The notes beneath the pieces were generated by a model that did not search any database, was not told the DNA's origin, and saw nothing but the letters and a program-made list of their open reading frames with translations. Shown piece after piece: positions 59,039 to 64,000 of a stretch of 64,000 nt of DNA. How positions within the stretch are numbered: the stretch's first letter is position 1; every line of letters begins with the position of its first letter. The translations under genes were made by a program, and so were the position numbers. The DNA lies in assembly GCA_004298675.1 (NCBI GenBank), contig SCRI01000086.1, forward strand, positions 132,055 through 196,054, written 5' to 3'. Source of the DNA: a bacterium. GTDB lineage: Bacteria > Vulcanimicrobiota > Vulcanimicrobiia > Vulcanimicrobiales > SCRA01.

Positions 59039-59263
59039 ATGAAGGCGGTTGTCATTCCCCACGTGCATGGCGCGTGGACGGTTTCTCATGTCGCGGTTCC
59101 GGAGCCCAAGAGCGACGAGGTGCTTCGTCGTGCCCGCGCGTTTGTTCGAGCAGCGGGGGCGCATCGTAGCGTCGGGACAGAACGGCGCGTGGTACTTGTA
59201 CGAACGGCGCCGGAATGGGTGCCTCCACAGAATCTCCACACTTATGTGGCAAACTGTATGTGA
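59039..59263 (+). pseudogene. Truncated zinc-type alcohol dehydrogenase N-terminus
   Basis: The frame starts MKAVVIPHVHGAWTV and continues VAVPEPKSDEVL, which is the N-terminal strand pattern of medium-chain zinc alcohol dehydrogenases. After EVL (about base 59133) the homology is lost: the expected I-x-V-x-A-S-G-x-C metal segment is replaced by an arginine-rich run that ends at a stop after 74 codons. GGAGG precedes the ATG, so the start signals survive. The break probably marks the junction with the redox island to the right. Confidence 0.6.
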
Positions 59264-59781
59264 TGACACGGGGGCACTTTTTGGGTTTTGCGGCACTGCT
59301 GACGACTGCCGCATGTAATCGTTCCGCGGATGCAACGGCTGTAGGCGGTCTTCAGGGGCTGGTGGGTCGACCCGTACCGAATTTTTCGGTCCCCCGGCTC
59401 GGGGGCGGAACCGGCTCTCTGGCGGACTATCGTGGAAAGGCGGTGCTTGCCAATCTTTGGGCCACGTGGTGCCCGCCTTGCCGGCACGAGATGCCGAATC
59501 TCGAACGGCTCTACCATACCTATGCGCCGCACGGTTTCGTGATCGTTGGGATCGACCAGGGTGAAGCGGCGAGCGTCGTGGCCGCGTATATCAAGAAGGT
59601 CGGCGTCACCTACCCGATCCTGCTCGACAACGATCAGCAATACGGTCCGGCCTTTCAGGCCGTGGGATTGCCGACGAGCGTATTCGTCAAACGCGACGGT
59701 ACAGTGTCCGCCGCGTTTGACGGCGAGTTGACGTATGAGAAGATGCGCGCGAACGCGCAAGCTGCGCTCGGAGCGAAGTAG
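59263..59781 (+). CDS. TlpA/ResA-like thiol-disulfide oxidoreductase lipoprotein
   Basis: A 172-residue protein with a lipoprotein signal (LLTTAACN, Cys18) and a thioredoxin-fold TlpA/ResA domain. The active site is NLWATWCPPCRHEMP, and the cis-Pro loop is GLPTSVFV. Such proteins reduce disulfides outside the membrane, for instance in cytochrome c maturation, and receive electrons from CcdA-type carriers. A CcdA-like gene lies 1.8 kb downstream on the other strand. The ATG at 59263 has only a weak ribosome site. Confidence 0.88.
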   Translation: MTRGHFLGFAALLTTAACNRSADATAVGGLQGLVGRPVPNFSVPRLGGGTGSLADYRGKAVLANLWATWCPPCRHEMPNLERLYHTYAPHGFVIVGIDQGEAASVVAAYIKKVGVTYPILLDNDQQYGPAFQAVGLPTSVFVKRDGTVSAAFDGELTYEKMRANAQAALGAK

Positions 59782-59810
59782 TCCCGCGGCGTGCCTGGCG
59801 GGCCGCGGGA
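59782..59810 (+). terminator. Hairpin after the TlpA-like gene
   Basis: TCCCGCGGC (59782-59790) and GCCGCGGGA (59802-59810) form a perfect 9-bp stem with an 11-base loop, directly after the stop codon. No T-run follows, so it may be an attenuator or stabilising hairpin rather than a full terminator. Confidence 0.45.
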
Positions 59811-59840
59811 GCGTGACAACGGCAGCGCGAATCGGTAGGC

Positions 59841-60506
59841 ATGCCACGAGTGCTCCTCGTCGATGACGACCCGGTGGTGTACGACGCGATTACACCGTAT
59901 GCCAGAAGAGAGCGGTGGGATCTGCGTTGGGCTCGCTCGGTGGGAGAGGCTACGCAGGCAATCGAAGGCGCGCCTCCCGACGTCGTGCTGCTGGACCGTG
60001 GGCTACCCGGCGTCGCCGGCGATGCCCTCGCCGCTCGGTTGAGCAAACTCGGTGCGCCGTTTCTCATGCTCACCGCGCTGACGGACGAGCCCGACCGGTT
60101 ATCTGGATTCGACCTGGGGGCGGATGATTACGTCGTCAAACCGTTCAGCGTTCCAGAGCTGGTTCGGCGCGTTCACGTCGTGTTACGCCGGCGCGGATCA
60201 CCTCGAATCCGGTTGCCGGGCGGCGTTGAGCTCGATAGCGAGGCACGTTTGGTGCGAGTGGCCGGCCGCACCGTGTCTCTGACCGCCACTGAATACGCTC
60301 TCTTCGAGCGCATGGCGCGGTCTCCGGATCGCGTTTACTCGCGCGAGGAGCTTGCTTCTCTCTGCGATTTGGATCTCGATACGTCCGATCGGGTCATCGA
60401 CTCGCATGTCAAGAACATTCGAAAGAAACTCCGGGGCGCCGGAAGCATGCATCCGGCGATCGAGACCGTCGTTGGGGTGGGCTACGTCGTGCGAGAAGAA
60501 CGATGA
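59841..60506 (+). CDS. OmpR-family response regulator
   Basis: A 221-residue regulator. The receiver domain has VLLVDDDP with the acidic pair, the phospho-acceptor Asp in VVLLDRGLPG (about residue 53), and the DDYVVKPFS lysine. The C-terminal winged helix shows LTATEYALFERMARSPDRVYSREEL in part and SHVKNIRKKLRG recognition helix. It overlaps the histidine kinase gene by four bases. The target genes are likely within the redox island, but this is inference. Confidence 0.93.
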   Translation: MPRVLLVDDDPVVYDAITPYARRERWDLRWARSVGEATQAIEGAPPDVVLLDRGLPGVAGDALAARLSKLGAPFLMLTALTDEPDRLSGFDLGADDYVVKPFSVPELVRRVHVVLRRRGSPRIRLPGGVELDSEARLVRVAGRTVSLTATEYALFERMARSPDRVYSREELASLCDLDLDTSDRVIDSHVKNIRKKLRGAGSMHPAIETVVGVGYVVREER

Positions 60507-61612
60507 CGCTTGCGGGACGCGTTACGCTTGCTTGTGCCATCGTGATGGGCGTTGGCATGGTTATCGCGGGACTCTTGATGCGAGTGACGATCGATCATTC
60601 CCTAGAGCCTTACGCGCGGCAATTCGTGATGATGCGGCAGATGATGGATGCCGGACCGGACCTCCCCGGCATTCTCGCAGCGGTAGATTGGGCGATGTTG
60701 CTATCCACGGTCGTCGCGATCGTCGTCGGGTGCCTCATCTCGTGGTTGCTCGGCGCGGAGCTCGCGCGTTCCGTCGTGGCCGTGCGCCGAGGCCTCGATC
60801 GCTTTGCCGCAGGCCAGCTTACTCAGCCGATCGATGCTCAGGGGCCGAGCGAGCTTCAATCGATTGCGGACGCCGCCAACGGCATGGCGCGGCAACTGCA
60901 TCAGTCGCGGCAGCTCGAGCGTGAGCTGGTTGCAGGAGTCGCGCACGACCTTGCGCATCCGGTCATCGGAATGCGAGGGACCGTGGAAGGCATTCGCGAT
61001 GGACTGGTAGACGCCGCAGACGGGCGGACGATCGATCGATTGCTGATGAATCTCGATACGCTCGAAGCGACGTTGACCGATCTTCGGGACGTCGCCGCGG
61101 TGAACGCGGGCCGTATCCAGATCTCGCTGGGTGATGTGGACATGCCGCGCGTTGCCGCGAGCGTCCATGATGCGTATGCGGATCTGGCGGCGCAAAAGGG
61201 TGTCGTTCTCGAACTCGACCGCGAAGGGAAGGCAAACGTACTCGTACGCTCTGACGAGCAGCGTCTCCACCGCATCTTGAGCAACCTCGTCCTCAATGCG
61301 TTGCACGCGACGGCGCCCGGTGGCAGCGTACGTATCGGGGCTCGGACAGAGGCTGCCCGCGCGGTTGTATTCGTCGAAGATGCAGCCGGCGCAGAGTCCA
61401 CTGCACGTATTCGGTCTGCACTGGAGGCTGGTTCGGGTGGTGGCCTCGGCTTGCACGTCGTCAGGGCTCTCTCCTCGGCGCTACATGCGGAGGTCCGTGT
61501 CCGAGAGGGCGTTGCCGGTACGGTCGTCGAGGTCGAGTTGCCGGTCCATCGCGCCGGGTTCGTGCCGCCGGAAGCGTTATCTGCCTTTGGAAACAGCGGC
61601 GGCCGTAACTAG
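60503..61612 (+). CDS. Sensor histidine kinase
   Basis: A 369-residue membrane kinase. Two membrane helices (about residues 4-26 and 62-85) flank a very short extracytoplasmic loop of about 35 residues, then a HAMP domain, the H-box VAGVAHDLAHPVIGMRG with the phospho-acceptor His, an N-box NLVLNALHATAPGG and a G-box GGGLGLHVVRALS. The small sensor loop contains no cysteine or obvious metal ligand cluster except methionines (MMRQMMD), which could bind copper or silver. The gene is convergent with the CcdA-like gene and overlaps it by four bases. Confidence 0.92.
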   Translation: MTLAGRVTLACAIVMGVGMVIAGLLMRVTIDHSLEPYARQFVMMRQMMDAGPDLPGILAAVDWAMLLSTVVAIVVGCLISWLLGAELARSVVAVRRGLDRFAAGQLTQPIDAQGPSELQSIADAANGMARQLHQSRQLERELVAGVAHDLAHPVIGMRGTVEGIRDGLVDAADGRTIDRLLMNLDTLEATLTDLRDVAAVNAGRIQISLGDVDMPRVAASVHDAYADLAAQKGVVLELDREGKANVLVRSDEQRLHRILSNLVLNALHATAPGGSVRIGARTEAARAVVFVEDAAGAESTARIRSALEAGSGGGLGLHVVRALSSALHAEVRVREGVAGTVVEVELPVHRAGFVPPEALSAFGNSGGRN

Positions 61613-62511
61613 CGGCGCGATACTTCTTGAGGGTCCGGCGTTTCAACGGGTGCCCGTCGTGTCGTGACGACGACGCCCGCGGCGACTCCCGTGGCGAGGG
61701 CAAGCAGGATGGCTGCTTGGGCGATGATCGGTAGGTGTCCGAGTGCGAGTGAGAGCGCGCCGGCGATTCCGGTCGCCCAGCGCGTCCACGCGACGAGCGC
61801 GTCGGGAGTCAGCGTGCTGGTTCCCGTTATGGCAATCGTCAGCGCCAACGACCCCATCGCGATGAAGATCGTGCCGGAAGCAGCATCGGTCCACAGCACC
61901 GGCCGGCCGCCAATCGTGATGCGAGGCCAGTGCCGCGAGGCTAGCCGCTGCTGCAGATTGAGGCGTTCCCAAAGCAGCGCGGCGGTGAAGAGCGGGAACA
62001 CCATGCCGAAAACATACGAGATCCCAAGACCGGCCGCGCCGAGCGGCGAGGCCGCGAGCGCGGAGAGCGCGATCACGCCGGCGAGCACCGGGGCGCAGCA
62101 AGAGCTGACGACACCGGAGACGACGCCAAGCATGAACGTATCGCCGATCCCGCCGGCGCTGCCTGCGCGATAGCGAAAGCTCGGCATCGGGAGCGTGAAG
62201 CCGCGGCCTACGAAGACCGCTAGACCCAGCGCCAGGAGCAAGAGCCCGACGACCAGGTAAACGGTCCGATGGTAGATTCCGAGGACGTGACCGAGCGCGC
62301 CCACGCCCAGGATGATCGGCAGCAAGACCACCGCAACGCCGGCGGCAAAAATCGTCGTCGTGATCGGCAGGCGCAGCCGCCCTGAGCGCAGGGCCGCGCC
62401 GACGAATGTCGGCATAAGGGATACGACGCAGCAAGGGGCGAACAGCGCGAGAACGCCGCCGAGGAATGCCGCGATCAACGAGCTCGAGTAGACGAGTGCG
62501 ACACTGCTCAC
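61609..62511 (-). CDS. CcdA/DsbD-like membrane thiol reductant carrier
   Basis: A 300-residue protein with about eight membrane segments. The two redox cysteine sites lie in pseudo-symmetric helices: FAPCCVVSLMPTFVG near residue 25 and VSSCCAPVLAGVI near residue 135, both CC pairs rather than the single Cys of classical CcdA. It would pass electrons from cytoplasmic thioredoxin to extracytoplasmic thiol proteins, here plausibly the TlpA-like lipoprotein and the membrane-anchored peroxiredoxin-like protein of the same operon. It overlaps the glutaredoxin-like gene by four bases. Confidence 0.82.
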   Translation of the reverse strand: MSSVALVYSSSLIAAFLGGVLALFAPCCVVSLMPTFVGAALRSGRLRLPITTTIFAAGVAVVLLPIILGVGALGHVLGIYHRTVYLVVGLLLLALGLAVFVGRGFTLPMPSFRYRAGSAGGIGDTFMLGVVSGVVSSCCAPVLAGVIALSALAASPLGAAGLGISYVFGMVFPLFTAALLWERLNLQQRLASRHWPRITIGGRPVLWTDAASGTIFIAMGSLALTIAITGTSTLTPDALVAWTRWATGIAGALSLALGHLPIIAQAAILLALATGVAAGVVVTTRRAPVETPDPQEVSRR

Positions 62512-62774
62512 GAGGGATTCGTGAATCCTCTCTTCGCGAGTCGCTTGCGGATCGCGCGTTCGGAGACCCTACCGTAGGCCCACAACTCGCCGTCGACGTA
62601 GAGCGCCGGTGGAAATGGAACACCGTCGCGCTGAAGGAGCGGCTTTGCCGCGTGATCGGTCCAGTCGAGCACGGTGATGTCCATCGGGCAACCTTCGGAC
62701 GTCAGCCGGTCGAGGATAGCATGGGCGTCGTGACAGAGATGGCAGTCCTCGGCCTCGATCAGTGTCACGATCAC
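62508..62774 (-). CDS. Glutaredoxin-like protein (DUF836/thioredoxin fold)
   Basis: An 88-residue thioredoxin-fold protein with the active site EDCHLCHDA (Cys11 and Cys14) and the cis-Pro strand PFPPALYVDGELW. It belongs to the small glutaredoxin-like group. Both cysteines are encoded by normal TGC/TGT codons. It sits between the peroxiredoxin-like gene and the CcdA-like gene with four-base overlaps on both sides, so the three form one translationally coupled unit and probably one electron-transfer path. Confidence 0.87.
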   Translation of the reverse strand: MIVTLIEAEDCHLCHDAHAILDRLTSEGCPMDITVLDWTDHAAKPLLQRDGVPFPPALYVDGELWAYGRVSERAIRKRLAKRGFTNPS

Positions 62775-63403
62775 TTCGACCTCAACGCCGCGAGCACATC
62801 GGAGACCGGAACGTGCATCGTCTGAGGCGCGAGCTCTTTCCAGATGACGCGGCCCGCGCTGTCCAGTAGGAAGATCGAATGATCGTCGACGGGGCCCATG
62901 TCCATGCCGGCCGACGGCAAACGGAAGATGCCGAACGCCGATCCAACCCGATGGTCGGTATCCTCGAGAAGCTGATACCCGAGTTTGAGCTGCGTCGACA
63001 GGGATTGCGAGGTTGCAATCGGATCGACGCTCACGCCGACGATGCGCGCACCAAGGGCTTGAAAATCAGAGAGACGTTGCTGCAACTCGACCAGTTGCGT
63101 TTGGCACGCCCCTCAGCCGGCGCCTTCATAAAAGTAGAGAACAACCTTCGATCCGCGTAACTGCGCGAGACGCATATTAGCGCCATGCGTCGAGGGGAGC
63201 GCTAGCTGCTCCGCTGCTTGTATCGTGACGGCGCTTGACCCTGAGGCCTCGGCTGCGGACGGCGAAGCCTCGCGGAGGTGCAGACCCACAAAAGCGGCCG
63301 CGGCCACGATCAGTGCCGCAAAAACGTAGCCCACGAATGTTGCCGGGGTACTCCGCCTTTGCGCGGAGAGTGCGCTACGACTATTCTCGGGGCCCTGTTT
63401 CAC
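62771..63403 (-). CDS. Membrane-anchored peroxiredoxin-like protein, candidate selenoprotein (Sec97, UxxC)
   Basis: Read through one in-frame TGA (63115-63113), the gene encodes 210 residues: an N-terminal membrane anchor (about residues 22-42), then an AhpC/TSA-like thioredoxin fold. The strand VVLYFYEGAG leads directly into TGA-Gly-Ala-Cys, then QTQLVELQQRLSDFQALGA and IVGVSVDP. The TGA is at the peroxidatic Cys position and makes a UxxC motif (residues 97-100). Both sides are in the same frame with no other stop. A hairpin with a GGUCG loop begins 14 bases after the TGA (see 63082-63098). The start is a GTG at 63403. The alternative is a nonsense mutation TGC to TGA. Confidence 0.75.
63082..63098 (-). 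promoter_or_regulatory. Candidate bacterial SECIS hairpin
   Basis: On the minus strand GCAACU pairs perfectly with AGUUGC around the loop GGUCG. The stem begins at nucleotide 15 after the TGA, and the GGU of the loop lies at 21-23. Bacterial SelB recognises an apical loop with G/GU at roughly 16-37 nt from the UGA; the E. coli fdhF loop contains the same GGUC. The hairpin is inside the coding sequence, as in bacteria. Confidence 0.7.
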
Positions 63404-63535
63404 AACGACTCCTTTGCAGCGAACTCGTCAGCTTCTACCATACTCGTGTGGAGATCGTGTGGAGGACGGTCGAGCCTAGCGCCGGCTTAACGTCTCCATT
63501 CGGCCTCCATACCAATACGGTAGGATGTGAGCACA

Positions 63536-63882
63536 ATGCGAGTCTTTGGCATGTGTCTAGATTGGCGGGTCCTCGGCGGACTTGCCAGCGTTGCGGTGAT
63601 CGTTGCCGTCACCCATCCCGCATGGCTTGGCCTGGCCCTGCCATATCTGCTCTTTCTGGCGTGCCCGCTTTCCATGCTCCTCATGATGCGTATGATGGGT
63701 GACAGTAGTGGCGCTCGTTCGGGAGCCACCGCGATGCCGATGGCGCACCCTGATGTCGTTCGTGAGCCCACGATAGCCGTACCGCTCTCGGTGTGGAAAC
63801 GGCTTTCCTCTCTCGAGGAGCAGGCGCAGCCGGCGCTGCCCGTCTCGAACAACTTGCGCGATTACGACGGTGCGGGACCAAG
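63536..63882 (+). CDS. DUF2933-like small membrane protein, 3' end disturbed by an IS element
   Basis: The frame opens MRVFGMCLDWRVLGGLASVA and continues through two hydrophobic helices to LFLACPLSMLLMMRMM, which fits the DUF2933 family found in metal-resistance and thiol-redox clusters. The ATG at 63536 is divergent from the peroxiredoxin-like gene, with 132 bases between. The hydrophilic tail from about residue 55 stays open to the window edge, but from about 63883 on it runs into the insertion sequence, so the true C-terminus is uncertain. Confidence 0.65.
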
Positions 63883-64000
63883 TGAAGCTGGCCCGGTTCC
63901 GTGGATACTCTCCGGTTGGCGGAGAAAGGTCCACCAATGGCCAGAAAGCACCCCCGGTCCTACCCGCCGGAGTTCCGGCATAACGTCGTGGAGCTGGCCC
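63883..64000 (+). mobile_element. IS3-like insertion sequence, left end (partial)
   Basis: TGAAGCTGGCCCGG at 63883 begins with the TG typical of IS3-family termini, and about 50 bases later a transposase frame starts. Only the left end is in the window, so the terminal repeat cannot be checked against the right end. Confidence 0.55.
63937..64000 (+). CDS. IS3-family transposase OrfA, N-terminus (partial)
   Basis: The ATG at 63937 starts MARKHPRSYPPEFRHNVVEL, which is the usual opening of IS3 OrfA helix-turn-helix proteins (YPPEFR-x2-VVEL). The gene runs off the right edge after 21 codons. GGAGAAAGG lies about 10 bases upstream. It is in a different frame from the DUF2933-like reading frame that also stays open here. 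Confidence 0.78.
   Translation, partial: MARKHPRSYPPEFRHNVVELA

Follow-up and report, generated by a model that had tools for sequence, protein, structure and literature searches.

A gene in the window (the whole stretch of 64,000 nucleotides that was analysed) that a stop codon seems to break very probably codes for a functional redox protein, anchored in the membrane, with a selenocysteine (Sec) active site. Comparison with related sequences makes it highly probable that Sec is inserted at codon 97, where the reading frame carries a TGA. The protein, named Sec-redoxin here, would belong to the AhpC/TSA superfamily as an anchored, extracytoplasmic redoxin similar to thioredoxin/ResA. The explanation as a whole, in which Sec-redoxin works in a reducing relay from the cytoplasm to the envelope, is considered likely. 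Automatic annotation would split the gene or call it broken, and it is a good selenoprotein candidate.

Table 1. Positions in the window of the Sec-redoxin gene, its elements and its neighbours
Feature	Position	Strand	Remarks
Sec-redoxin gene	62771..63403	-	AhpC/TSA domain; GTG start; 210 aa + stop; UGAC active-site motif
In-frame TGA, codon 97, predicted Sec	63113..63115	-	First position of UxxC
Cys100 codon	63104..63106	-	Second residue (Cys) of UxxC; in alignments matches the peroxiredoxin peroxidatic Cys and the second ResA Cys
Predicted N-terminal membrane anchor	63269..63346	-	Residues about 20-45, basic residues ahead; predicted from sequence
His175 codon	62879..62881	-	Invariant in 12/12 aligned members; at the thioredoxin cis-Pro / peroxiredoxin Arg place
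Shine-Dalgarno-like AAAGGAG	63409..63415	-	5 nt upstream of the GTG start
bSECIS-like hairpin	63082..63098	-	GCAACT-GGTCG-AGTTGC; apical loop 20 nt past the TGA
Glutaredoxin-like protein gene	62508..62774	-	88 aa; CHLC; start overlaps the Sec-redoxin stop by 4 bases
CcdA-like membrane protein gene	61609..62511	-	300 aa; conserved Cys pairs APCC and SCCAP
Divergent DUF2933 gene	63527..64000	+	PF11666, 4.4e-8; runs off the contig end

Reading frame of the Sec-redoxin gene

A single TGA splits one minus-strand frame into two parts, 63403-63113 and 63085-62771. The first-pass annotation had joined them into one AhpC/TSA-like protein, and the read-through product of 210 residues bears this out, with a Pfam AhpC-TSA match (E 6.9e-24) at residues 62-187, on both sides of the TGA. 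The claim that the frame stays open past the TGA and ends in a four-base overlap also holds: 113 sense codons plus the stop follow, and the stop shares four bases with the GTG start of the next gene. Since the GC content of the window is 66%, the open frame by itself is weak evidence. Membrane anchoring, which had been suggested as well, is plausible from the hydrophobic stretch that follows a basic N-terminus. The single-sequence AlphaFold2 model of Sec-redoxin contains a helix at residues 20-45; the model is of low confidence (pLDDT 54) and was set aside rather than used for a fold search.

A TGA-containing orthologue and Cys-containing homologues

The second genome of the genus (G001) has an orthologue (L080:1346-1945), which is 60% identical and carries TGA at the aligned codon. 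The presence of the TGA in two independent assemblies makes a base error unlikely. Between the two genes, the codons downstream of the TGA show a pS of 0.66 and a pN of 0.20, which is not expected of a dead 3' part. The domain upstream of the TGA gives a pS of 0.83 and a pN of 0.29, and the 5' tail (1-60) is fast-evolving, with a pN of 0.54.

Twelve members were aligned: two TGA members (from the window genome, G000, and G001) and ten Cys members from plasmids. Position 97 is Cys in all ten plasmid homologues and TGA in the two genomes, and Cys100 and His175 are invariant in all 12 members. This distribution is the one that the first-pass annotation had proposed to look for. Its call of a candidate selenoprotein is now backed by the Cys homologues, the TGA orthologue, the selection downstream of the TGA and the Sec machinery described below.

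Searches of the phylum found no true orthologue beyond the two genomes, save for a fragment at the end of a G001 contig. This fragment (G001:C160:1500-3301, L057) is a second, partial Sec-redoxin copy with matches in two frames, which could stem from decay of a duplicate or from misassembly. A scan of genome contigs with one sequence returned one distant match, and a profile search of viral contigs with the redoxin alignment returned no relative.

Alternatively, the TGA could be a nonsense mutation or an assembly error, so that only fragments of a pseudogene would be expressed. The assemblies are drafts, which speaks for this explanation, but the aligned codon of the G001 gene, which was assembled independently and has diverged to 60% identity, is TGA as well, purifying selection persists past the TGA, and the stop-start overlap is preserved. 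The complete Sec machinery and the further in-frame TGAs at redox sites of the same genome also argue against it. A broken gene or a sequencing error is therefore very improbable, and the explanation was rejected on the basis of the G001 orthologue and the selection. General recoding of TGA is a poor explanation too, since the Sec-redoxin gene itself uses TGA as its regular stop.

Selenocysteine machinery and other TGA-containing redox genes

The window comes from a 3.03 Mb draft genome that is 98.5% complete. In this genome a tRNA-Sec gene scored 71.7 bits (gathering cut-off 47) and is called SeC by ARAGORN. selA scored 542.9 bits (cut-off 267.9), and selB lies directly downstream of it, with 302.9 bits over the frame (cut-off 242) and 269 bits for the first part alone. 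selD scored 380 bits (cut-off 125) and has one in-frame TGA of its own, in CAGUASK. All four genes of the check suggested with the selenoprotein call were thus found. With selB and tRNA-Sec in place, the main objection foreseen there, a genome without selB/selC, is excluded.

In the phylum, tRNA-Sec was above the cut-off in 100 of 149 genomes, i.e. two thirds of those searched, and in 66 of the 85 good-quality ones. Sec use looks widespread in the phylum, where many TPGU PrxQ-like and TxxU AhpE-like TGA genes have Cys forms in relatives. Within the order, TGA-bearing PrxQ-like (TPGU) and AhpE-like (TGVU) genes alternate with the TPGC/TxxC forms of relatives.

One in-frame TGA was found in 4 of the 18 AhpC/TSA genes of the window genome, Sec-redoxin included. 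The same genome has a TxxU peroxiredoxin-like gene on C18 (..FTPVUTSQM..) and two more UxxC paralogues, on C50 (..GTWUPRC..) and C22 (..GAYUPFC..). Another, distantly related family of the phylum has GTWCPQC Cys forms of the C50-type paralogue (L110 and L111, in G068 and G067), giving a second Sec/Cys pair.

A bSECIS-like hairpin downstream of the TGA

A hairpin begins 14 nt past the TGA, with a loop that opens with GG and an MFE of -17.2. The published bSECIS model allows a loop of 3-9, a stem of 4-16, a spacing of 16-37 and an MFE of at most -7.5, with G in the first two loop positions (PMC13188914). The hairpin fits this model, as do 63% of ordinary codons in the window genes, so it is weak when taken alone; in the same null, 13% of the codons reach its energy. 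Six UxxC genes of the genus share the hairpin; a single pair in it changes, from A-U to G-C, a covariation that 170 of 500 shuffles also reached. The ten Cys homologues have no equivalent of it. Rfam gave chance matches only over the region. The hairpin is compatible with a bSECIS role. Its use as stand-alone proof of Sec insertion was dropped after the null test.

Position of the TGA in the active site

When Sec-redoxin was aligned with PrxQ and AhpE, Sec97 fell on the Thr of TxxC and Cys100 on the peroxidatic Cys. When it was aligned with ResA, the motif fell on CEPC, so that the TGA corresponds to the first Cys of CxxC. These alignments indicate that Sec would take the position of the thioredoxin-type nucleophile. 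In peroxiredoxins, the nucleophile is the C-terminal Cys of a CxxC-derived motif, and an Arg holds the place of the thioredoxin cis-Pro (PMC2757866). At this place Sec-redoxin has His175, whereas Pro is found there in the UPRC and UPFC paralogues.

The first-pass annotation had put the TGA at the peroxidatic position, as a replacement of the expected Cys that creates UxxC. The replacement stands, as the homologues have Cys at this codon. The peroxidatic assignment does not, because the peroxidatic Cys corresponds to Cys100 and the TGA falls three residues before it; that reading was ruled out by the PrxQ/AhpE and ResA alignments.

Sec-redoxin has the PF00578 domain with UxxC replacing TxxC/TxxU. 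The catalytic peroxiredoxin signature is not matched, with U/C for Thr and His175 for Arg, and Cys100 alone is kept. The traits of ResA/TlpA-type proteins, namely a membrane anchor, CxxC and an adjoining CcdA, are present, the anchor and the partnership being predictions. The cis-Pro opposite CxxC is absent, with His175 at its place in 12/12 members.

Sec-redoxin could also be a Sec-dependent peroxidase whose main task is to reduce peroxide in the envelope. Either Cys100 or Sec97 would then be peroxidatic, and the CcdA-like protein would feed the enzyme. The AhpC/TSA domain and the alignment of Cys100 with the peroxidatic Cys agree with such a role, and the Caulobacter ScsB-TlpA-PprX system provides an example of an envelope peroxidase route (PMC5403849). 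However, all 12 members have a CxxC-type motif where TxxC would be expected and a His in place of the active-site Arg, the motif aligns with ResA, and a separate TxxU peroxiredoxin-like gene is present in the genome. A peroxidase is therefore regarded as unlikely.

The Sec-redoxin operon and its Cys-form relatives on plasmids

Sec-redoxin is the first gene of the operon, followed by the glutaredoxin-like and CcdA-like genes. The first-pass annotation had overlooked this module, with its DUF2933 gene, and the copper genes near it. The glutaredoxin-like protein has a Glrx-like match of 6.2e-4, below the Pfam cut-off, and aligns with the glutaredoxin family protein of a Rubrobacter module. The CcdA-like protein has no CcdA/DsbD match in Pfam; it shares 41% identity with a Rubrobacter protein annotated as CcdA and 63% with the G001 protein. 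In G001 these three genes keep their order, and a CopC/CopD fusion comes next. In the window itself, whose contig ends at 64000, no copper gene was identified beside the Sec-redoxin operon.

Runs of ccdA, redoxin and grx/trx genes were found on plasmids of seven genera, Rubrobacter, Burkholderia, Paraburkholderia, Microvirga, Rhodococcus, Streptomyces and Cryobacterium, and on a Cellulomonas plasmid the genes are arranged as grx-ccdA-redoxin. The plasmid modules (L098, L100-L106) span Actinomycetota and Pseudomonadota, and DUF2933 lies immediately ahead of ccdA in three of them. A copper gene was present within the fetched stretch in five plasmid records (cueR in two, CopC in two, a multicopper oxidase in one), a raw count from records picked by redoxin similarity and not by copper genes. 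The Burkholderia stretch contains a heavy-metal P-type ATPase as well. Plasmids often carry metal resistance. A more distant homologue in Metabacillus is accompanied by none of the module or copper genes.

The copper genes beside the Cys modules and the CopC/CopD gene in G001 raise the alternative of a copper chaperone or reductase in the manner of Sco, in which Sec97, Cys100 and His175, perhaps with Met167 and Met196, would bind Cu(I) and the protein would deliver copper or reduce Cu(II). His175, Met167 and Met196 are invariant in 12/12 members, 3 of the 12 give a weak SCO1-SenC match (best 1.4e-3), and a cis-Pro, absent here, may block metal binding to CxxC (PMC2757866). In contrast, the Sco proteins of relatives have CxxxC, where this family has CxxC/UxxC, and their late His ligand is placed two residues earlier with respect to the strand that comes after it. 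Such a chaperone is thus improbable, to the same degree as the peroxidase. His175 as the exact Sco ligand position was rejected owing to the offset of two residues.

Relation to known systems

Prx-like UxxC selenoproteins (PF00578) were described in 2005 (PMC1088965; see also PMC2398784) and are a high-confidence selenoprotein family (PMC13188914). The statement in the first-pass annotation that Sec is established in such proteins of other bacteria is thus borne out by the literature (PMC1088965, PMC13188914). Sec-redoxin belongs to these known selenoproteins, with which it shares the AhpC/TSA fold family, a thioredoxin-like UxxC in place of TxxU, and Cys homologues. It differs from them in the N-terminal anchor, the fixed setting of CcdA-like, Grx-like and DUF2933 genes, and the His at the cis-Pro/Arg place. 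The module and the His175 feature were not found described. The literature search found no description of the ccdA/redoxin/glutaredoxin module or of its Sec form, no paper on CcdA with copper and DUF2933, and no paper on selenocysteine in Eremiobacterota. The literature on CcdA together with selenoproteins, as far as titles and counts tell, holds passing mentions only.

CcdA-ResA/TlpA systems likewise combine an anchored extracytoplasmic CxxC redoxin with an adjoining CcdA-like transporter, and the motif of Sec-redoxin aligns with CEPC. Unlike in these systems, Sec replaces the first Cys, the cis-Pro is missing and a dedicated glutaredoxin-like gene is present; the plasmid forms are surrounded by copper genes rather than cytochrome c genes. 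The membrane part of Scs systems is ScsB, whereas a short CcdA-like protein is found here. Scs systems (Caulobacter ScsB-TlpA-PprX, Salmonella ScsA-D) resemble the present case as envelope redox relays fed from the cytoplasm, and serve a peroxiredoxin or protect against copper (PMC5403849); the redoxin here differs in being a Sec UxxC protein. PrxQ/Bcp and AhpE, including the TxxU forms of the clade, belong to the same superfamily and have the peroxidatic Cys at the place of Cys100, but Sec-redoxin has UxxC for TxxC/TxxU and His for Arg.

Proposed function of Sec-redoxin

CcdA takes reducing equivalents from thioredoxin in the cytoplasm and hands them to ResA and other proteins outside the membrane (PMC9145763). 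In the favoured explanation, SelB with tRNA-Sec would read the TGA at codon 97 as Sec and thereby create the UxxC active site. Sec97 would attack as the nucleophile and Cys100 would resolve, which would give a selenenylsulfide. This bond would be re-reduced from the cytoplasm via the CcdA-like membrane protein, whose likely cytoplasmic donor is the glutaredoxin-like protein. The topology and electron flow of the relay are probably as drawn here.

The relay would most likely keep envelope thiols or copper-binding cysteines reduced, or handle copper-driven oxidative damage. Copper catalyses wrong disulfides, and thiol oxidoreductases of the envelope, ScsC among them, act against these (PMC5403849). 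A role of the module in copper handling, suggested by the recurrent copper genes, can be put forward tentatively. A more specific version is somewhat more doubtful still. According to it, electrons would pass from glutaredoxin through CcdA to Sec-redoxin in a Sec-dependent copper-homeostasis relay across the membrane, and the Sec/Cys/His site would reduce or bind copper or the thiols of copper sites. The relay would have arisen when Sec took the place of Cys in a module associated with copper and also carried from host to host by plasmids, which is conjectured with the same reserve. A Sec redoxin tied to a CcdA/glutaredoxin module recurrent with copper genes makes a specific test possible, namely of Sec in envelope copper or thiol homeostasis.

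On the plus strand at 59215-61612, a TlpA-like gene (WCPPC) is followed by genes for a response regulator and a histidine kinase. They are convergent with the Sec-redoxin operon, and are possible regulators or partners of it.
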